Positions 12,114 through 24,745 of a DNA stretch of 64,000 nucleotides are shown piece by piece; position 1 is the first letter of the stretch, and the number at the start of each line of letters is the position of its first letter. The notes under the pieces were generated by a model. That model was given only the letters and a program-made list of their open reading frames with translations. It had not been told where the DNA came from and ran no database searches. The stretch is from the NCBI RefSeq assembly GCF_900109645.1, contig NZ_FOBG01000001.1:1178001-1242000 (forward strand), in the 5' to 3' direction. The position numbers were made by a program, and so were the translations under genes. This stretch comes from Duganella sp. CF402. Its GTDB lineage: Bacteria; Pseudomonadota; Gammaproteobacteria; Burkholderiales; Burkholderiaceae_D.

Positions 12114-14630
12114 GTGAAAATCGTCACCCGTCTCAAGCTGGCGCAACTGATCTGCATCGTGCTGCTGGCGATCATGGCCGTCATCTTCGCGCGCACCACC
12201 TTGCAGATGCGGGCCGAAGTCGCCAAGGCCGAAGTGACCAACGAAGTGCTGCGCGCGGCGTCCGGCCTGCGCTACCTGTCGCTGGAATACGTGCTGCATC
12301 ACGGCGAGCGCAGCCGCCAGCAATGGCTGATGCGGCGGACCTCGCTGCAACAACTGATCGCCGGCGACGGCAACTTCGACGCCGCGCCGGAGCGGGAGTT
12401 GCTGGACGATCTGCGCCAGAACTCGCAGTCGATCGCCACCCTGTTCGATGAATTGCAGGGCTTGCAGGCCGAACACGAGCGCGAGCCGGGCCGGGAAGCC
12501 ATCCTGCAGGAACTGGAGGCGCGGCTCACCGGCCTGATCATGAACCGCGCGCAAAACATGATGTCGGACGCCGAGGCCTTGTCGCGCCTGAACCGCGAAC
12601 GCATCCTCGCCGCGCAAAACGATGCGATGATTGCCGCCGCCGCGCTTGGCGGCCTGATCCTCATCGTGGTGCTGGGGGCGATGGGCCTGACCGTCCGCAG
12701 CGTAACCGTGCCGCTGGCGCGCCTGCATCGCGCCACCGAAGTCGTGGGCGGCGGCAGCCTCGACTTTTCGCTGGCGCTGCGGGCGGACGATGAAATCGGC
12801 AGCCTGGCACGCTCGTTCGACCACATGGTGCAGCGGCTGCGGCAAACCACGGTGTCACGCAACGAACTGCTGCAGACCAACCAGGCGCTGCAAGTTGAAA
12901 TCGGCGAGCGTCAGGCGGCCGAAGCCAAAGTGCTGGCGCAGTTGACCCGCATGAGTCTGCTTCACCAGATTACCCGTTCCATCGGCGAACGGCAGGATTT
13001 GCGCAGCATCTTCCAGGTCGTCATCCGTAGCCTGGAAGACCAGCTGCCGGTGGATTTTGGCGCCATCTGCGAATACACGGATGGCGAACTGGTGGTGCGC
13101 AGCGTCGGCGTGCGCAGCTACGACTTGTCGATGACGCTGGCGATGGGCGAGGCGGCGCATATCCCTATCGACCAGAACGGCCTGTCGCGCTGCGTGGCGG
13201 GACAACTGGTGTACGAAGCCGATATCGGCGCGATCGACTTTCCCTTCCCGCAGCGGTTGGCGCACGGCGGTCTTGGCTCGATGGTGCTGGCGCCCTTGCT
13301 GGCCGAAAGCACCGTGTTCGGCGTCCTGGTGGTGGCGCGCCGCCAGCCGCAAGGCTTCTCCAGCAGCGACTGCGAATTCCTGCTGCAATTGAGCGAACAC
13401 GTGGCGCTGGCGGCCACCCAGGCGCGCCTGTACGCGACCTTGCAGCAAGCCTACGACGACCTGCATCAAAGCCAGGCCCAGGTGACCAAGCAGGAACGGC
13501 TGCGCGCGTTGGGGCAAATGGCGAGCGGCATCGCGCATGACATCAACAACGCCATCGCGCCGATCGGGTTGTATGCCGAATCCCTGCTGGAAACCGAGCA
13601 CGGCCTGAGCGAGCGCGGCCGCGCCAGCCTGCAAGTAATGGAACGCGCCATCGACGACGTGGCGGCGACCGTAGCGCGGATGCGCGAATTCTATCGCCAG
13701 CGGGCGCCGCAATTGACGCTCAGCACCGTCAACGTCAACCAGATCATGCAGCACGTGGTCGATTTAACGCGGGCGCGCTGGTCGGACATGCCGCAGCAGC
13801 GCGGCATCGTCATCGAGATGCGGCAGGACTTGGGCGAGAACTTGCCGCTGATTCTGGGCGTGGAAGGCGAAATCCGCGAGGCCTTGACCAACCTGGTGTT
13901 CAACGCCGTTGACGCGATGCCGGACGGCGGCGTCGTCACACTGCGCACGCGCTACGTTGAACGGTTGGATGGCGCGCTGGGCGCACACGTGCTGATTGAA
14001 GTGCGCGACAACGGCGCCGGCATGGATGAGGCCACGCAGCGGCGCTGCATGGAGCCGTTCTTTACCACCAAAGGCGAGCGTGGCACGGGGCTGGGACTGG
14101 CTACCGTGTACGGCATGACCGAGCGCCACGGCGCGCGGCTGGCAGTAGACTCCAAGCCGGGCGGGGGCACGGCGATGAAAATGTATTTCCCGGTCGCCGG
14201 GCAAGCCATCGACGTGGACGAGGGCGCGACTGCGCTGCGGCCGGCCAGCAGCCTGAAAATCCTGATCGTGGACGACGATCCGACCTTGCTGGCATCACTG
14301 GGCAACATCCTGGGGGCGGATGGCCATGAAGTCACACAGGCCGACAGCGGGCAGGGCGGCATCGACCGTTTCCGCGAGGCCCAGTCGAGCGGCCACGGCT
14401 ACGAGGTCGTCATCACCGACCTCGGCATGCCTTACGTGGACGGTCGCAAAGTCGCCGAAACAGTGAAACAAATCGCGCCAGCCACGCCGGTCATTCTGCT
14501 GACAGGTTGGGGCCAGCGCCTGATTCCGGACAGCGACGAAGGCCCGGTCAACGTCGACCAGGTACTGAGCAAGCCGCCGAAAATCCGCGAACTGCGGGCC
14601 GCGTTGGTCAAGTGCACTGCTGTCATTTAA
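12114..14630 (+). CDS. Membrane hybrid histidine kinase (HAMP-GAF-HisKA-HATPase-REC)
   Basis: A GTG start at 12114, 8 bp after the binding-protein stop, gives 838 aa; extending the frame upstream would overlap that gene by 190 bp. TM1 (about 9-28) and TM2 (about 172-195) flank a helical periplasmic region. HAMP, a coiled coil and a GAF domain (about 285-430) follow. The HisKA box is the NtrB-like GIAHDINNAIAPIG (H475). The HATPase (NLVFNAVDAMPDGG, GTGLGLATVYG) and a C-terminal receiver (D769 in VITDLGMPY) complete it. The protein resembles kinases using a periplasmic binding protein as co-receptor, matching its neighbour. No DNA-binding output is encoded nearby. Confidence 0.9.
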   Translation: MKIVTRLKLAQLICIVLLAIMAVIFARTTLQMRAEVAKAEVTNEVLRAASGLRYLSLEYVLHHGERSRQQWLMRRTSLQQLIAGDGNFDAAPERELLDDLRQNSQSIATLFDELQGLQAEHEREPGREAILQELEARLTGLIMNRAQNMMSDAEALSRLNRERILAAQNDAMIAAAALGGLILIVVLGAMGLTVRSVTVPLARLHRATEVVGGGSLDFSLALRADDEIGSLARSFDHMVQRLRQTTVSRNELLQTNQALQVEIGERQAAEAKVLAQLTRMSLLHQITRSIGERQDLRSIFQVVIRSLEDQLPVDFGAICEYTDGELVVRSVGVRSYDLSMTLAMGEAAHIPIDQNGLSRCVAGQLVYEADIGAIDFPFPQRLAHGGLGSMVLAPLLAESTVFGVLVVARRQPQGFSSSDCEFLLQLSEHVALAATQARLYATLQQAYDDLHQSQAQVTKQERLRALGQMASGIAHDINNAIAPIGLYAESLLETEHGLSERGRASLQVMERAIDDVAATVARMREFYRQRAPQLTLSTVNVNQIMQHVVDLTRARWSDMPQQRGIVIEMRQDLGENLPLILGVEGEIREALTNLVFNAVDAMPDGGVVTLRTRYVERLDGALGAHVLIEVRDNGAGMDEATQRRCMEPFFTTKGERGTGLGLATVYGMTERHGARLAVDSKPGGGTAMKMYFPVAGQAIDVDEGATALRPASSLKILIVDDDPTLLASLGNILGADGHEVTQADSGQGGIDRFREAQSSGHGYEVVITDLGMPYVDGRKVAETVKQIAPATPVILLTGWGQRLIPDSDEGPVNVDQVLSKPPKIRELRAALVKCTAVI

Positions 14631-14660
14631 TCGACATTACTACCTATATTGTCGATTAAA
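14626..14660. repeat. Perfect 11-bp inverted repeat between kinase and recombinase genes
   Basis: The arms TTTAATCGACA (14626-14636) and TGTCGATTAAA (14650-14660) are perfectly complementary around a 13-nt loop. The left arm contains the kinase stop codon. The stem is AT-rich and is not followed by a T-run, so it is a weak terminator. It lies just upstream of the recombinase -10 box and could be a regulator or recombinase binding site. Confidence 0.6.
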
Positions 14661-14662
14661 AA

Positions 14663-14705
14663 CACTGGGTAAAATACTGTATAATTCACTGGGTATTCAT
14701 ACAGT
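14663..14705 (+). promoter_or_regulatory. Recombinase promoter with nested direct and inverted repeats
   Basis: A consensus -10 TATAAT lies at 14680-14685, 31 bp before the recombinase ATG. It is flanked by two copies of CACTGGGTA (14663-14671 and 14687-14695, 24 bp apart). It also lies within the left arm of an inverted repeat, ACTGTAT (14676-14682) and ATACAGT (14699-14705). This arrangement suggests repressor or autoregulatory recombinase binding over the promoter. Confidence 0.5.
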
Positions 14706-14716
14706 TTTCATGCTTA

Positions 14717-15892
14717 ATGCAACCCAAGAAATTCGACGTCATCAACCTGGACCCATATCCCGCACAAAGTGACGGTGCCGAACAGCGCCGTCAACGCGAC
14801 ATCGACGCCCTGCGTACCATCGCCGAGGACGCCATGACCGATGCCCGCACGGACAGCGAAATTGCGCGGGAATTCATCAGCCACGGCGAACTGGGCCCCA
14901 AATCGATGGCCAACACGCAAAAAGAGCTGTTCCGGTTCCTGACCTGGTGCCGGGAAGAGGCAGGCAAATCGCTGCGCCAGCTGAACGTGGCCGACCTGAA
15001 CGGCTACAAGGAGTTCCTGAAATCGCCGCCGCAGGACTGGGTTTCGACCACCAAATGGCCGCGCAACGATCCGCGATATCGACCATTCAGCGGCCCGTTG
15101 TCGGACGCCAGCCGCCGCCAGGCCATGATCGCGGTCAAAGGATTGTTCGCGTACGCCACGCACACCGGCTACTTGCGGCGCGATCCGGCGGCGCTGGTCA
15201 AGCACGTCAAGACCGCCAGTGCCAGCCGCATCACGCGCTACCTGACGTCGGACGCGCTGAATCTGGCGCTGTCCAAGGCAGCCGCGCGCGAAGCGACGAC
15301 GCCAGCGGCCGTACGCCGGCGCGAGCGCGATCATTTTCTGTTGAGCGCATACATCCACACCGGCGCGCGCCTGAACGAAATCGTCAGCGCCAATATGGGC
15401 GCGCTTTACACCGAAGGCAACGGCCGCTGGTGGCTGGACGTGCTCGGCAAAGGCAACAAACCGCGCCGGTTGCCGGTGCCGCCCGAAATGCTGGCGGCGT
15501 TCCGCCAATATCGTTTCGCGTACGGCATGACGCCACACACGGTGCGCAGCGACGACACGCCGCTGGTATTGTCGAGCCGTGGCGAAGCGCGCGTGCGGAT
15601 TACGGACGAAGCCGCGTCAGACGCGCTCAAAGCCATCTTTGCCGAAGCGGCCAGCGCAGCGGACGTGATGGGCGACGCCGACATGGCAGCTACATTGCGG
15701 CAAGCGTCGGCGCATTGGCTGCGGCACAGCATGCTGACCAACCATGCCAACAACGGCGTGCAGCTGAAAACCCTGCAAGAAACCGCCGGCCACGCCAGCA
15801 TCGCCACAACAGCTGCGTATTTGCACAAGACCGACAACGAGCGCCACGACGAGATTCTCGCTTCCGTGGGCACCTCCAAGAACTCGACGTAA
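14717..15892 (+). CDS. Tyrosine recombinase / site-specific integrase
   Basis: The 391-aa protein has an N-terminal SAM-like core-binding domain (about 50-150, NTQKELFRFLTWCREEAGKS) and a C-terminal catalytic domain. The full active-site set is visible: R218 (TGARLNEI), a lysine in GKGNKPRR, H333 and R336 (HWLRHS), H359 (GHASIATT) and nucleophile Y368 (AAYLHKTD). It is larger than typical XerC or XerD (about 300 aa). Its stop codon overlaps the first base of a dif-like site, and the gene has host-like GC. It may be an element integrase acting at dif or a resident recombinase of unknown role. No excisionase or phage gene is seen. Confidence 0.9.
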   Translation: MQPKKFDVINLDPYPAQSDGAEQRRQRDIDALRTIAEDAMTDARTDSEIAREFISHGELGPKSMANTQKELFRFLTWCREEAGKSLRQLNVADLNGYKEFLKSPPQDWVSTTKWPRNDPRYRPFSGPLSDASRRQAMIAVKGLFAYATHTGYLRRDPAALVKHVKTASASRITRYLTSDALNLALSKAAAREATTPAAVRRRERDHFLLSAYIHTGARLNEIVSANMGALYTEGNGRWWLDVLGKGNKPRRLPVPPEMLAAFRQYRFAYGMTPHTVRSDDTPLVLSSRGEARVRITDEAASDALKAIFAEAASAADVMGDADMAATLRQASAHWLRHSMLTNHANNGVQLKTLQETAGHASIATTAAYLHKTDNERHDEILASVGTSKNST

Positions 15893-15919
15893 TTTCGCAT
15901 AATTTATATTATGTAAAAT
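15892..15919. other. dif-like XerCD recombination site
   Basis: The 28 bp divide into a XerC-type arm ATTTCGCATAA, a centre TTTATA and a XerD-type arm TTATGTAAAAT. Compared with E. coli dif (arms GGTGCGCATAA and TTATGTTAAAT, centre TGTATA), they match at 8/11, 5/6 and 10/11, or 23 of 28. The nearly palindromic inner core CATAA...TTATG is exact. The site begins at the last base of the recombinase stop codon. Coding strand bias switches here: genes to the left run forward, and those to the right mostly run in reverse, as expected at a replication terminus. It could be the chromosomal dif or one junction of a dif-using element. Confidence 0.82.
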
Positions 15920-15977: not shown

Positions 15978-17747
15978 TTAAGAAAATTTCGCAGTAAATT
16001 CCGGCTCATATGCAAGTTCAAGAGCTAGCTCACGTCCCAGACGATATAACGCCATAATCTCATCGGTCGATAGTTGCTGATCGAGCGTCGTGATGTGCGG
16101 AAAGCCTTTGAATTTTCCTGCGAGGCTATGCTGTGAGCCATTAATTTTGACGTGTATGTACTTACCATACTTTAACGCGCCGGCCGCCCCTCCTGGGTAG
16201 ACAATATTCCCGGTCAAAATACCGGATGTATTCTGTTGAAATCTAAATTTTGTAGAGGCGCTAGCCAAGTCAGGAATGACTAACGTTGCTAAATCCTCCG
16301 ACCGTAACGTGACGCACAACTGCCGCAGATCCTCAAATTCAAATTCAGGATCAAATCCCGCATCAAGACATACAATTACATCGGACCGTCGTTTAAACAA
16401 TGCAAGCGCACCTAAATTTTCTACAAATCCTCCGTCCGATAACTGCATAGTGGTTGGACGTGCGCCGGCCAACGTCAGTAACCGGTTCAGACTTGTGAGC
16501 ACATATTGTAGTTGTCCGCTCGTTTGAGCTGCTACCCAATACCCTGTGCCGCCAAACAGCGCTCCCCCCAAGGCAGATAGCGTTGCAGTCGATTTGATAA
16601 AGTCCACTGCCCCACCTGAAATCGCCATTGCATCTGCCAAATCGAGATCTGGCAGATGTTCGCTTAATTTGGCGTATCCAGTCTTAAACGAGCCGCAGTA
16701 GTGTGGCGTTAATTCAAATTCGATGAGGGACGAGCCTAGATTCGCGGAAGCATTGAAAATGGGATACGGATTCCATGACTGAGGTAAATTATGCAACTTA
16801 ACCGGAGTGGTATCTTGCGGAAGAAATCGATCGAGCAGAATTTGACGGTAGGATTGAAATACAAAATGTACCTTATTCTGCCACTTCAACGACCAGTTCC
16901 AAGGAAACAGCAAGCCAATGAAAGCGACTACCCAAAGCGCTATCTCTGCCCATGTGTGCATATGCACAATAAGCACCAGCGTTGTTGACAGAACGCCTAG
17001 TAGTGTCGCGAAGGACCAGCGAAACAACGGATCCGAAGTCCGTTGAAAACGATGCGGATTCGCTGAAACATAGCGCTCTCGTAAGAACATACAGAGCAGA
17101 ATCGTCGCGCTACTTTGCCACGCTCCATATTCTATAGCGGCAAGAGCGCCGAGGAAAAAACAAAGAAACGTGGTTAGGACGAATAGCTCGGCCGTTAATG
17201 GCGGACGCTGACTTATACGGCGGCGCCTGGATACCTCCCCCAATGCTAGCGCGCCGAATGCGGTAAGTCCGCCGACGATTGACACATTCTGACTATCCTC
17301 GGCATTGCCACGTACTAGCGTGAACAACGGTAGCGCAATCAAGGCAAAGAGCGGTAGGCAATGGAATAGCAGATCGAGCACGAAGGCAGTGATTAACCTG
17401 CCTAGCTTGTATGGTGGTGCTTCCAACCGGTAATCACTATTGAACAGCGGATCGGCCGGTCGGTGACATAGTTGGCTAATCACACCGGCTGCAGTGTATC
17501 CCCCGCCAGACACGGACGAAATATAGTCGAATTTTGCGAAAAATTTCCGCGTATGAAGCTCTTCGATCAGTCCACGTGCGATAAACGCAGAACGAATTCC
17601 GCCACCAGAAAGCGCTAATCCTTTAATTTCTTGCGCATCGATATCGGTTTTTTTAAGATGCCCAGCTACGTGGGCCTTTTGCCTGCGTAATGAAATCGCC
17701 TTGCGCTCATCGTTCCGAAGATAGGGTGGAAGTTCGTGTTGTTTCAA
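15978..17747 (-). CDS. Patatin-like phospholipase with membrane-spanning insertion
   Basis: The 589-aa protein has the patatin glycine-rich oxyanion motif SGGGIRS (47-53), nucleophile S80 in SSVSGGGY and catalytic D438 in LSDGGFVENLG. Between S80 and D438, about 360 residues apart and much more than in simple patatins, lie about four to six hydrophobic helices (about 118-146, 155-172, 187-222, 251-292). The catalytic domain is thus split by a membrane insertion. The start is TTG at 17747 with GGACGGAG seven bases upstream. GC content is visibly lower than in the flanking genes, suggesting transfer. It lies alone between the dif-like site and the benzoate genes. A lipase acting on the cell's own membrane is plausible but unproven. 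Confidence 0.85.
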   Translation of the reverse strand: MKQHELPPYLRNDERKAISLRRQKAHVAGHLKKTDIDAQEIKGLALSGGGIRSAFIARGLIEELHTRKFFAKFDYISSVSGGGYTAAGVISQLCHRPADPLFNSDYRLEAPPYKLGRLITAFVLDLLFHCLPLFALIALPLFTLVRGNAEDSQNVSIVGGLTAFGALALGEVSRRRRISQRPPLTAELFVLTTFLCFFLGALAAIEYGAWQSSATILLCMFLRERYVSANPHRFQRTSDPLFRWSFATLLGVLSTTLVLIVHMHTWAEIALWVVAFIGLLFPWNWSLKWQNKVHFVFQSYRQILLDRFLPQDTTPVKLHNLPQSWNPYPIFNASANLGSSLIEFELTPHYCGSFKTGYAKLSEHLPDLDLADAMAISGGAVDFIKSTATLSALGGALFGGTGYWVAAQTSGQLQYVLTSLNRLLTLAGARPTTMQLSDGGFVENLGALALFKRRSDVIVCLDAGFDPEFEFEDLRQLCVTLRSEDLATLVIPDLASASTKFRFQQNTSGILTGNIVYPGGAAGALKYGKYIHVKINGSQHSLAGKFKGFPHITTLDQQLSTDEIMALYRLGRELALELAYEPEFTAKFS

Positions 17748-18630: not shown

Positions 18631-20921
<2,291 letters not shown>

Positions 20922-20925
<4 letters not shown>

Positions 20926-22277
20926 TTCGCTGCTCCTTCGGCTTGCAGGGCTTTCTTCATCACGTCCAGCCAGTAGCGGTGCTGGATGGTGTACAAGCCT
21001 TCGTCCTCAGTCTTCACGCCGCTCATGACGGGATTGAGGCCGATTTCGCGCGCGGCGGCATCGGCGCCCTGCACCCAGTGTTTCGAGCCACGGCACATGT
21101 CGTTCCATTCCAGCGCGATTCCCTTGTAGCCTTGCTGGCAGGCGCGGAACTCTTCCAGGTCGTCCGGCGTCGCCATGCCGCTGACGTTGAAGAAGTCCTC
21201 GTACTGGCGGATGCGGCGTGCACGCGCTTCGTCGGACTCGCCTTTCGGCGCGATGCAGTAGATCGTTACCTCGGTCTTGTCGACCGAGATAGGCCGCAGC
21301 AGGCGGATTTGCGAACCGAATTGGTCCATCAGATAGACGTTCGGATACAGGCACAGGTTGCGCGAGCGCTCGATCATCCAGTCCGCCGTGGCGCCGCCAA
21401 ACTGCTCGGCGTATTCCGCGCGGCGCGGATAGTTGGGCCGGTCCTGTGGATTGGCCCATTGGGTCCACAGCAGCAGGTGGCCGTGCTCGAAGGCGTAGAA
21501 ACCGCCGCCCTGCTTACCCCAATTGCCGGCATCCATCGCCTTGATCTTGTCTTCGCGCGCCGCTTCTTCCTTGCGACGGTTGGTGGTGGCGGCGTAATTC
21601 CAGTGCACCGCCGAGACGTGGTAGCCGTCCGCGCCGTTCTCCGCTTGCAGCTTCCAGTTGCCTTCAAAGGTGTAGGTCGAGGAGCCGCGCAGCACTTCCA
21701 GTCCATCGGCGGACTGGTTGACGATCATGTCGATGATCTTGGCCGCTTCGCCGAGGAACTCCGGCAGCGGCGCCACGTCGTCATTCAGGCTGCCGAACAG
21801 GAAGCCTTTGTAACTCTCGAAGCGCGCCACTTTCTTCAGGTCGTGCGAGCCTTCCTTGTTGAAGCAGTCCGGATAGCCTGCATCTTCCGGATCTTTCACC
21901 TTCAGCAGCTTGCCGCTGTTGTTGAAGGTCCAGCCGTGGAACGGGCAAGTGTAGGTCGCCTTGTTGCCGCGCTTGTGGCGGCACAGCTGCGCGCCGCGAT
22001 GGGTGCAGGCATTGATGAAGGCATTCAGCTCGCCCTGACGATTACGCGCGATGAAGACCGGCTGGCGGCCGATGTGCGTCGTGTAGTAGTCGTTGTTGTT
22101 CGGGACTTGGCTTTCGTGGGCAAGGTAGATCCAGTTTCCTTCGAAGATGTGCTTCATCTCCAGCTCGAACAATTCGGGATCGGTAAAGGCGGCGCGGTGC
22201 AAGCGATAATCGCCCTTGTCGTGGTCTTCGATCAGATACTGGTCGATGGACGGCTTGGCTTTGTGGATCGGGATCAT
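20922..22277 (-). CDS. benA: Benzoate 1,2-dioxygenase large (alpha) subunit
   Basis: The 451-aa oxygenase has a Rieske centre C91-x-H93...C111-x2-H114 (CTHRGAQ, CPFHGW) and a mononuclear iron site formed by H220, H225 (GYHVSAVHW) and D317 (LMDQFG), with D217 as the inter-subunit relay residue. It dihydroxylates benzoate to the cis-diol. The ATG at 22277 has AGAGG upstream and lies 10 bp after catA; the open frame beyond it is only the reverse shadow of catA. Benzoate is the most likely substrate given benD, benE and benK nearby, although anthranilate- or toluate-type substrates cannot be excluded by sequence alone. Confidence 0.95.
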
Positions 22278-22287
22278 GGCCAACCTC

Positions 22288-23208
22288 TTATGCAGCGGCG
22301 CGCACGCGTTCAACTTCCGCAGCCGGCGCGGCATCACGCTCTGCATACAGGCTGAAGTCGAAGTCGATTTCGGCGTATGGCTTGTCCAGGCCCTTGGCGC
22401 TGATCTTTGCCGCATCGGTAATGTGGCGCACCGCCGGCACCAGGCCTTCGCGGCTGGCGAAGGCAAAATCGTCCCACAAGTATTCATCGCCGTCGATGTT
22501 GATCTGAGTGGTCAGCTTGCGCTGGCCTTCGGCGCTGATGAAGAAGTGGATGTGCGCTGGACGATGGCCGTGGCGGCCCAGCTGGTCCAGCAGGCGCTGG
22601 GTGGTGCCGTCCGGCGGGCAACTGTAGCCAACCGGCAGGATGCTGCGGAATTGGTAGCGTCCCTCGCCGTCGGTGTAGATGGTGCGGCGCAGATTGAACG
22701 GCGACTGGGTCTGGTCGAAGAACGAGTAGCCGCCCATCAGATTGCAGTGCCAGACTTCGACTTTGGCATTGGTCAGCGGCTTGCCTTGTTCGTCGCGCAC
22801 CGTGCCTTGCATGAACAGGACTTCGGCCTTGTCGACTTCAGTGCCATCATCGAGACGTGCAAAACCCTTGCTTTCCGGTGCGCCGGCTACATACAGCGGG
22901 CCTTCGATGGTGCGCGGCGTGCCGCCGGTCAGGCCGGCCCTGGCTTCCGCTTCATCGGCGCGGATGTCGAGGAAGCGTTCCAGTCCGAGGCCCGGCGCCA
23001 GCAGGCCCAGTTCATTACGCACGCCGGCTTCGCGCAAGTATTCCAGGCCGCTCCAGAATTCCGTGGCCTGGATGTCCAGGTCTTCGATGGTTTTGCACAG
23101 GGCGCTGACCAGGCCTACCACCACCTGCTGCACGCGCGGGTTGGCCGGGGCGGTTGCGCTGTCGATGATCCAGCTCTTTACCAGTGCGTCGATTTCTTGA
23201 TGGTTCAT
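22288..23208 (-). CDS. catA: Catechol 1,2-dioxygenase
   Basis: The 306-aa intradiol dioxygenase has an N-terminal helical linker domain (1 to about 100) and a catalytic beta domain. The four Fe(III) ligands are visible as Y161 (MGGYSFFD), Y195 (VGYSCPP), H219 and H221 (RPAHIHFF). It cleaves catechol to cis,cis-muconate. It sits between catC and benA in one reverse-strand operon, so the enzyme making catechol's precursor and the ring-cleaving enzyme are co-transcribed. Confidence 0.96.
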
Positions 23209-23235
23209 GTTATGTCTCCTCTTCGAGTGGTGGAT

Positions 23236-23526
23236 TTAAGCGTCGGTATCGCGTACGGAAGACGGATGCCGGCACATTGGGTTGATGTCGATCTTCATAT
23301 AGGGGAAAAGCGGCAGCGAAGTCAGTAGCGCGTGCAGCTCGTCGACGCTTTCGACATCGAACACGCTGAAGTTGGCGTACTGCCCGGCGATGCGCCACAG
23401 GTGACGCCACTTGCCGCTGCGCAGCAGGCTTTGCGCCAACTCGCGCTCATTCTTCTTGAGTTCATCGGCCTGCGCGGCCGGCATGGCCGGTGGCAGTTGA
23501 ACATCCATGCGGACGTGGAACAGCAT
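23236..23526 (-). CDS. catC: Muconolactone delta-isomerase
   Basis: The 96-aa protein has the full CatC length and sequence character (MLFHVRMDVQLPP, ERELAQSLLRSGKWRHLWRI, LPLFPYMKIDINPM). It isomerises muconolactone to beta-ketoadipate enol-lactone, the substrate of pcaD at the end of the same operon. It lies 12 bp after catB. Relatives form a homodecamer. Confidence 0.95.
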   Translation of the reverse strand: MLFHVRMDVQLPPAMPAAQADELKKNERELAQSLLRSGKWRHLWRIAGQYANFSVFDVESVDELHALLTSLPLFPYMKIDINPMCRHPSSVRDTDA

Positions 23527-23538
23527 GGCAATCTCCTT

Positions 23539-24648
23539 TTATTTGCGGCGCAGGCGCGCCAGTTTGTCCATATCGATGTCGACACCGAGGCCAGGGCCGG
23601 TCGGCACTTGCAGCATGAAGTCTTTGTAGACCAGCGGCGTTTGCAGCACTTCCTCGGTCAGCAGCAGCGGTCCAAACAGCTCGGTGCCGGCCGACAGGTC
23701 GGTGAAGGTCGAGAACAGGTGGGCCGATGCCGCCGTGCCCACGCCGCCCTCCAGCATGGTGCCGCCGTACAGGCTCACGCCGGACAACTGCGCCACCGTC
23801 GCCACCTGCGCGGCCGGAATCAAGCCGCCGGACTGGGTGATCTTCACCGCGAAGACGTCGGCCGCCGAGGCGTTTGCAAACGCCAGCGCATCCTGCGGGC
23901 CATGCAGCGCTTCGTCGGCCATGATGGAGACCGCGTAACGCTGCGCCAGGCGCGCCATTGCCGCCGTGTTCTCGGCGCGCACCGGCTGTTCGATCAGATC
24001 AATGCCGCCAGCTTCCAGCGCGGCGATGCCCTGCACCGCTTCCAGCTCGCTCCACGCCTGGTTCACATCGACGCGCACACTGACCGCATCGCCGAGTGCT
24101 TTTTTAATCGCCAGCACATGCTTGACGTCGTCGGCCACCGGACGGGCGCCGATCTTCAGCTTGAAGATGCGGTGGCGGCGCTTCTCCAGCATCAGCTCTG
24201 CTTCGGCGATGTCTTTGGCGGTGTCGCCGCTGGCCAGCGTCCACGCCACCGGCAGCGCATCGCGCACGCGGCCGCCCAGCAGTTCGCTGAGCGGGATGCC
24301 GAGGCGGCGTGCCTGCGCATCCAGCAGCGCGGTCTCGATCGCGCATTTGGCGAAGCGGTTGCCCTGGATGATCTTGCGGATCTTCGCCATCGCCTTCGCC
24401 ACCTGGCTCGCTTCCATGCCTGTCAGCAGCGGTGCGATGTGGGTGTCGATATTGACCTTGATGCTCTCCGGGCTCTCCTCGCCGTAGTTCAAGCCGCCGA
24501 TGGTGGTGGCCTCGCCCCAGCCTTCGATGCCGTCGGCGCAAACCACGCGCACCAGCACCAGCGTTTGCGTATTCATCGTCGCCACCGAGAGCTTGTGCGG
24601 ACGGATGGTCGGGACGTCGGCGAGGATGACTTCAATGTTCTGAATCAT
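23539..24648 (-). CDS. catB: Muconate cycloisomerase
   Basis: The 369-aa enolase-superfamily enzyme has a KxK motif (FKLKIGAR), metal ligands in DVNQAW, LIEQP and MADEALH, and the general-base lysine in FAVKITQSGG. It converts cis,cis-muconate to muconolactone. The ATG at 24648 starts the family-typical MIQNIEVILADVPTIRPHK; a longer frame would run into the promoter. It is the first gene of the catBCA-benABCD-pcaD operon and diverges from catR. Confidence 0.95.
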   Translation of the reverse strand: MIQNIEVILADVPTIRPHKLSVATMNTQTLVLVRVVCADGIEGWGEATTIGGLNYGEESPESIKVNIDTHIAPLLTGMEASQVAKAMAKIRKIIQGNRFAKCAIETALLDAQARRLGIPLSELLGGRVRDALPVAWTLASGDTAKDIAEAELMLEKRRHRIFKLKIGARPVADDVKHVLAIKKALGDAVSVRVDVNQAWSELEAVQGIAALEAGGIDLIEQPVRAENTAAMARLAQRYAVSIMADEALHGPQDALAFANASAADVFAVKITQSGGLIPAAQVATVAQLSGVSLYGGTMLEGGVGTAASAHLFSTFTDLSAGTELFGPLLLTEEVLQTPLVYKDFMLQVPTGPGLGVDIDMDKLARLRRK

Positions 24649-24680
24649 ATTTAGTTTGTATAATTGATCGGATAAGTACA

Positions 24681-24745
24681 CAATATTCTTGAAGAACCTC
24701 CCCGTCCAACACTGATTTGGCATTGTTTTAATACCCGAAAGGTAT
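24681..24745 (-). promoter_or_regulatory. catB promoter with CatM/BenM-type operator
   Basis: The operator ATACCCGAAAGGTAT (24731-24745) fits the ATAC-N7-GTAT consensus of CatM/BenM-type LysR regulators. It ends 3 bp before the catR start codon. On the reverse strand, a -35 TTGGAC (24709-24704) lies 21 bp from the operator, followed by a weak -10 (TATTGT) after 18 bp. Operator position, 21-bp spacing and -35 are the same as at the benE promoter. CatR probably activates catB here with muconate (or benzoate) and represses itself. Confidence 0.82.

Follow-up and report, generated by a model that had tools for sequence, protein, structure and literature searches.

The window, that is, the whole stretch of 64,000 nucleotides analysed here, belongs to contig NZ_FOBG01000001.1 of Duganella sp. 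CF402. It contains a gene for a tyrosine recombinase, hereafter REC, which ends on a dif site and is preceded by a palindrome and by promoter-like elements. In window coordinates, the features of the locus are as follows:

14629..14657, no strand assigned: putative core recombination site of REC, AATCGACATTA-CTACCTA-TATTGTCGATT, with 11-bp inverted arms and a 7-bp spacer
14680..14685, + strand: TATAAT, a -10-like hexamer of the putative REC promoter, read from the sequence
14689..14704, + strand: LexA-box-like CTGGGTATTCATACAG, one mismatch to CTGT-N8-ACAG
14717..15892, + strand: REC, a 391-aa tyrosine recombinase that is neither XerC nor XerD according to profile scores (ATG start, TAA at 15890-15892)
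15892..15919, + strand: dif, the XerCD site, ATTTCGCATAATTTATATTATGTAAAAT, whose first base is the last base of the REC stop codon

The REC gene and the dif site of the window

The initial annotation had described a dif-like 28-mer at 15892-15919 that agrees with E. coli dif at 23 of 28 positions and shares its first base with the stop codon of a 391-aa recombinase. Both points hold: the agreement was confirmed by eye against the E. coli sequence, and the overlap from the sequence itself. Because the window dif differs from that of E. coli at five positions, the E. coli 28-mer has no match in the window at up to three mismatches. A search of the 6.24 Mb genome at up to three mismatches finds the 25-mer core of the window dif in this one place (reversed control, 0), and the better copy elsewhere that could have displaced it did not appear. 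The sign change of the GC skew also falls at dif. The skew is positive on the left (0.014 in the window, 0.030 at 1.14 Mb) and negative on the right (-0.018 in the window, -0.035 at 1.25 Mb); among 20 more stretches sampled along the contig, two on the right of dif, at 1.50 and 1.85 Mb, are weakly positive. Directly after dif, a low-GC ORF (15978-17747, GC about 0.49-0.55), with a sub-threshold match to patatin (27.3 vs. 27.7 bits), looks like a recent acquisition. Further along, translations inspected by eye indicate a cluster for an aromatic ring-hydroxylating dioxygenase and the catechol/muconate pathway (18631-24723).

REC belongs to the tyrosine recombinase superfamily. It has the conserved R, K, H-R, H, Y set, and its catalytic domain matches Pfam PF00589 (Phage_integrase) with 61.5 bits and E 1.1e-16. 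R218, K245, H333, R336, H359, and Y368, which we take to be the catalytic residues, are invariant in 19 orthologs, in keeping with the full catalytic set noted initially. Among NCBIfam profiles, XerC and XerD score best, both below their cut-offs (82.9 vs. 335.15 bits and 79.4 vs. 329.6 bits), and an identification of REC as XerC or XerD was rejected on these scores; the XerS profile gives 44 bits for a cut-off of 267. The nearest fold matches of the AlphaFold model are XerH-difH and XerD, with a TM of about 0.35, and Cre is also among the matches, with 10-12% identity. Since this model is only of medium quality (pLDDT 74.5, pTM 0.53), these matches support the superfamily alone. Elsewhere than at the REC locus, the genome encodes XerD (L002, 375 bits for a cut-off of 329.6) and a XerC whose score of 334.7 bits lies 0.45 below the cut-off of 335.15 (L004). 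Hence, REC is not the sole Xer recombinase of its host, which XerH and XerS are in theirs. The same contig also carries an integron integrase (L003, G000:C2:2361039; TIGR02249, 494.5 bits).

A scan of 84,980 species genomes returned 88 relatives of REC, of which 80 loci, 53-91% identical, were kept. They belong to Duganella, Massilia, Pseudoduganella, Rugamonas, Telluria, Collimonas, Glaciimonas, one Herbaspirillum, and metagenome-assembled genomes named Janthinobacterium, Herminiimonas, Oxalobacteraceae, or Burkholderiaceae; the highest identities are found in Duganella. In one of the locus comparisons, the row of L088 had the wrong orientation and was left out of account. REC is a maintained gene under purifying selection: it is free of early stops in 80 of 81 loci, and dN/dS ranges from 0.02 to 0.14 in 11 species pairs (0.117 against the D. 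flavida ortholog). It occurs in 20 of 145 genomes of the family (matches of at least 53% identity) and in 37 of 74 genomes of the genus (at least 72%). As it was not found in the other 125 family genomes, REC is dispensable.

The TATAAT hexamer is present in most of the Duganella upstream regions compared. CTGT-N8-ACAG, which we take to be the LexA consensus, is found within 330 bp upstream of REC in perfect form at 53 of 81 loci and with at most one mismatch at 64. The corresponding counts are 0.25 and 7.85 in shuffled sequences, and 1 and 8 for 115 other genes from 10 loci; lexA of this genome itself has two perfect boxes. In most Duganella loci the LexA-like box is imperfect, with three mismatches in L177, L178, L179, L182, and L185. 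The box of the window has one mismatch, so that SOS control of REC is uncertain here.

Linkage of REC to dif and to a palindromic site

The linkage between REC and dif is real and beyond chance. The 3' end of REC faces dif in all 47 family and genus genomes having both on one contig (43 recounted together, and four of the Collimonas/Glaciimonas type read from the family-sample searches). This is also the orientation codirectional with replication, and the orientation alone is therefore weak evidence. Among the 80 named loci, dif lies within the stretch in 46, always downstream of REC and never upstream, and 34 have no dif there. Contact between dif and the stop codon is limited to the window and six of the 80 named loci, all Duganella (L106, L107, L109, L110, L115, L183). 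In eight other named loci dif is reversed and lies 38-51 bp downstream, and in other genomes the distance reaches 63.7 kb. A conserved recombinase without an adjacent dif, an observation that would count against the initial annotation, is seen in many relatives. A comparison of left-flank genes shows little conservation around the terminus from one genus to the next.

The contact suggests that REC could recombine dif itself, as a third Xer protein or as a terminus recombinase similar to XerH or XerS, and the fold and profile matches to XerH-difH, XerC, and XerD point the same way. However, XerD and the near-cut-off XerC are already present, REC may lie up to 64 kb from dif, and dif (up to two mismatches) is found in 96 of the 145 family genomes, including 76 of the 125 without REC, whereas REC is found in 20. 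Moreover, REC co-occurs with another site, described below, which explains the linkage better. The contact was rejected as a reason to make dif the substrate, and this reading is very unlikely. The idea that dif sites form an integron-like array in the interval from REC to dif was likewise rejected, dif being single in 95 of the 96 matching family genomes; G073 has a second one at two mismatches.

The other site is the 29-bp palindrome upstream of REC, which is the sole copy in the genome at up to one mismatch and the sole match in the window at up to three. It was searched for genome-wide with the pattern TCGACATTA-N7-TAWTGTCGA, allowing one mismatch. In the family, the site is found in 16 of 145 genomes, namely 15 of the 20 with REC and one of the 125 without (backward control, 1 of 145). 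The five other REC-bearing genomes (G014, G117, G130, G143, and G071, the last one being L027) have, immediately ahead of REC, a form with 11-6-11 geometry, for example ACTCGAGATTA-CGTTAA-TAATCTCGAGT. In the genus, the site occurs in 35 of 37 genomes with REC vs. 1 of 37 without; the remaining two have it with two mismatches, a level that also matches 7 of 37 REC-less genomes and 8 of 74 backward controls. When the 29-mer was searched at up to two mismatches in 300 genomes of the order, the four matches were all in REC-bearing genomes of the same family, with 0 of 290 in other families. From this co-occurrence, REC and the palindromic site very probably form a functional pair. It is improbable that dif is the target of REC, which probably acts on the palindromic site instead.

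Compared with REC, the site is the part usually, not always, held near dif. Its distance to dif in 44 REC-bearing genomes ranges from 0.70 to 12.7 kb, with a median of 1.29 kb and 34 values of no more than 2 kb; in all 43 that could be tested, it is on the same side of dif as REC. In 30 of the 44, at most 250 bp separate it from REC. In the other 14, it is detached from the gene and lies 0.70-4.5 kb from dif, and REC, on the same contig in 13 of them, is 1.5-63.7 kb from dif. With a limit of 11.5 kb, set after inspection of the data, 12 genomes have REC farther than this from dif: in eight of them the site is 0.76-1.64 kb from dif, and in the four others, of the Collimonas/Glaciimonas type, it is beside REC, 16-55 kb from dif. 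Seven genomes with REC at 3.4-11.5 kb also have the site next to the gene, at 4.6-12.7 kb from dif. Genome-wide searches at up to two mismatches were made for 32 of the 34 named loci lacking dif in their stretch. Site and dif share a contig in 25 of these genomes, whose species are partly those of the genus sample, and the nearest site is 0.69-1.37 kb from dif in 22 and 11.3-12.5 kb in three. For E. coli, the zone of dif activity is given as about 10 kb on either side in passages of one paper (PMC2680272) and as a 30 kb region in passages of another (PMC2731167). The Collimonas/Glaciimonas-type sites fall outside this zone. In Massilia, an ORF judged similar by eye lies between the REC-type site and dif at L153 (16471-17331) and likewise at L143, L147, L150, and L169; a Pfam search with that of L153 gave no match.

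These positions also bear on the idea that the palindrome is an operator, bound by REC or by another regulator, rather than a recombination site. An operator would be expected where the palindrome lies in Duganella and its relatives, a short way ahead of REC and within 250 bp in the 30 genomes mentioned. In contrast, the 14 detached copies stay close to dif; in many Massilia the palindrome is absent upstream of REC and lies near dif, beside unrelated genes in those inspected. In addition, core sites of tyrosine recombinases typically combine conserved arms, here of 11 bp, with a spacer that varies. The operator was demoted on the Massilia cases, and we consider it highly improbable.

Three loci carry probable traces of elements at dif. 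In D. rivi (L108 11175-11205; G176:C32), REC is followed by a left half-dif joined to a different right arm, and an intact dif is found after about another 11.3 kb; this hybrid bears the mark that XerCD leaves on inserting an element at dif. In G204 (C1:3603642-3614364), a second dif-like site with two mismatches and an intact XerD arm lies 10.7 kb beyond dif, which suggests another element inserted there. The IMG/VR viral contig L258 has REC and dif at its start (721-2701). One of the genes after them encodes a replication initiator of phage type (Pfam REP_ORF2-G2P), and the contig is probably a prophage beside dif.

REC might itself be an integrase, encoded by a mobile element that is small or decayed and inserts at dif, with the palindrome as the other attachment end. 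When Duganella loci whose flanks are unrelated are compared, conservation begins at the palindrome, some 90 bp ahead of the REC gene, and stops at the final base of dif, in line with such an element. The DNA between REC and dif ranges from 1 bp to 64 kb, REC is found on either side of dif (orientation "+" in 17 and "-" in 29 of the 46 loci), and the D. rivi hybrid fits an insertion as well. However, an island should leave two attachment sites, and this genome holds one dif (up to three mismatches) and one REC site (up to one mismatch), limits beyond which strongly degenerate attachment sites would fall. REC is under purifying selection, the DNA separating it from dif differs between genera, and no cargo conserved together with it was seen across the genera compared. 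Among the 12 genomes with a distant REC, the palindrome stays near dif in eight and accompanies REC in the four of Collimonas type, and the only relative on a viral contig consists of REC and dif with a replication gene of phage type next to them. The island proposed initially thus lacks a duplicated dif, a second REC site, and conserved cargo, and the mobile-element reading is unlikely.

Site architecture, a second recombinase family, and plasmid relatives

In 53 sites from the named loci and the window, the arms are near invariant and the centre of the spacer is variable, with 24 different spacers. Arm conservation is partly built into the search pattern; the outermost bases, which are not in the pattern, are A in 53 of 53 and T in 50 of 53. 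Covariation across the dyad of the arms is barely above that of shuffled sequences, of which 30 of 500 reach the paired percentage and 19 of 500 the score. The REC site has the form of an inverted-repeat core with a variable spacer, co-occurring with the recombinase, as in single-recombinase resolution systems of the Cre/loxP kind, whose spacers are of 6-8 bp. It is single in this genome and in most REC-bearing genomes, which suits the resolution of sister chromosomes rather than integration. Ten genomes have at least two sites at up to one mismatch, and the spacers differ in every one of them, which is suggestive, as this would be expected if recombination required matching spacers. In some genomes (G225, G227), a second site with another spacer lies near REC.

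A second family of recombinases, REC2, is 34-41% identical to REC and is also linked to dif (L028, L029, L032, L033, L036, L105, L214, L215, L217). In all eight genomes with both on one contig, dif is on the 5' side of REC2, and the gene points away from it. Upstream of REC2, a palindrome TGACATTA-N6-TAATGTCG with a variable spacer is present in 8 of the 11 REC2-type genomes scanned (G106, G155, G168, G154, G060, G090, G107, G083) and was not found in the three others (G087, G024, G134). Its distance to dif, measured in four genomes, is 2.5-4.5 kb in three and about 39 kb in one. In these sequences, REC2 shares the design of REC, with conserved arms and a variable spacer. G152 (L189, position 7414), where neither REC nor REC2 finds a match at E≤1e-30, has a REC2-type site 2.6 kb from dif.

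Many relatives of REC are found on plasmids. Plasmid records matching REC number 1697, all under 60% identity, and in a spread of 40 listed matches, 16 are annotated as TnpR of Tn4401, with 30.6-30.9% identity. A homolog on a Massilia violaceinigra plasmid (41.5% identity) is near ParA/ParB genes, and a perfect 11-6-11 palindrome lies upstream of the gene that precedes it. REC is chromosomal in all genomes looked at except G096, where REC (63% identity) and its site are on a 123-kb contig with Rep3, ParA, and ParB genes. Matches among phages amount to eight weak records, and viral contigs gave one match, L258, where REC and dif are beside phage-type genes; a phage origin of REC was rejected on this basis.

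REC-type sites also occur on second contigs of G018, G126, and G139, the recombinases there being only 31-32% identical to REC, and ParM genes are on the same stretches in G018 and G126. From these cases, one may imagine that chromosomal REC serves plasmids by resolving their multimers in trans, the chromosomal site being incidental. This would leave unexplained why, in most genomes, a chromosomal site lies within a few kb of dif; besides, a second site at up to one mismatch is found in only 10 genomes, a minority of the REC-bearing ones searched. We give such a service to plasmids little chance of being the main role of the system.

Proposed role and comparison with known systems

On balance, the evidence favours REC and the 29-bp palindrome being a single-recombinase resolution system of plasmid or transposon type, placed at the terminus beside XerCD/dif and probably providing auxiliary dimer resolution. 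Of the two readings initially offered, a dedicated terminus recombinase or the integrase of a dif-targeting island, the first comes closer, REC being conserved, under selection, and linked to the terminus; dif as its likely target was not retained. A fuller account, which we propose tentatively, is that of a natural, LexA-controlled, and plasmid-derived second dimer resolution system, whose own "second dif" would have been selected into the terminus zone served by FtsK, alongside XerCD/dif. It might be shared with co-resident plasmids, kept from integrating by their different spacers. Two REC protomers would bind the inverted 11-bp arms of each sister site, and four protomers would form the synapse. 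Strand exchange across the identical spacer would then turn the chromosome dimer into monomers. The resolution system would function best near dif, where septal FtsK gathers the sister termini, which others have shown to hold for Cre/loxP of E. coli strains. Under LexA control, the amount of REC would increase once dimers become more frequent through DNA damage and homologous recombination.

To our knowledge, bacteria are thought to resolve chromosome dimers by one Xer system per chromosome. In the literature covered on dif/Xer of Oxalobacteraceae and on second or alternative dimer resolution, with most subscription papers outside its scope, no description of such a system was found. A group of Oxalobacteraceae appears to have placed a plasmid-type system at the terminus beside intact XerCD/dif, often with SOS-type boxes. 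Several questions become testable: the need for two systems, the way in which a plasmid resolution system becomes chromosomal, and the positional rule that selection imposes on the site.

The REC system harbors features of several known systems. With the tyrosine resolvases of plasmids and of the Tn3 family, such as tnpR of Tn4401, it shares many plasmid homologs and, in the case of the 41.5% identical one, an upstream palindrome. In contrast to them, REC is almost always chromosomal, G096 being the exception, and its site is mostly near dif. Integrative mobile elements exploiting Xer (IMEX) use the host XerCD. The use of dif as an insertion hotspot, seen in the hybrid half-dif of L108 and the phage-type replication gene beside dif in L258, recalls these elements, whereas no dif-flanked element surrounds the recombinase gene REC. 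XerS/difSL and XerH/difH replace XerCD; this genome has XerC and XerD as well as dif, and the site of REC is another one. What REC has in common with these two systems is a recombinase gene linked to its site at the terminus, as they are described in passages of a 2009 survey (PMC2731167).

The same passages state that there was then no evidence of loxP/Cre-like systems in dif/Xer-deficient proteobacteria, and that dimer resolution by Cre/loxP works only with loxP at the terminus (PMC2731167); Cre-loxP is reported, in another paper, to substitute for XerCD-dif within ter of E. coli (PMC2680272). The REC system resembles Cre/loxP of phage P1 in having one recombinase and a palindromic core site with a short spacer, and its position at the terminus is that of the engineered loxP. 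Unlike Cre/loxP, it is natural and chromosomal, it lies beside an intact dif and is accompanied by LexA-like boxes, and its arms, its length, and its protein are different.
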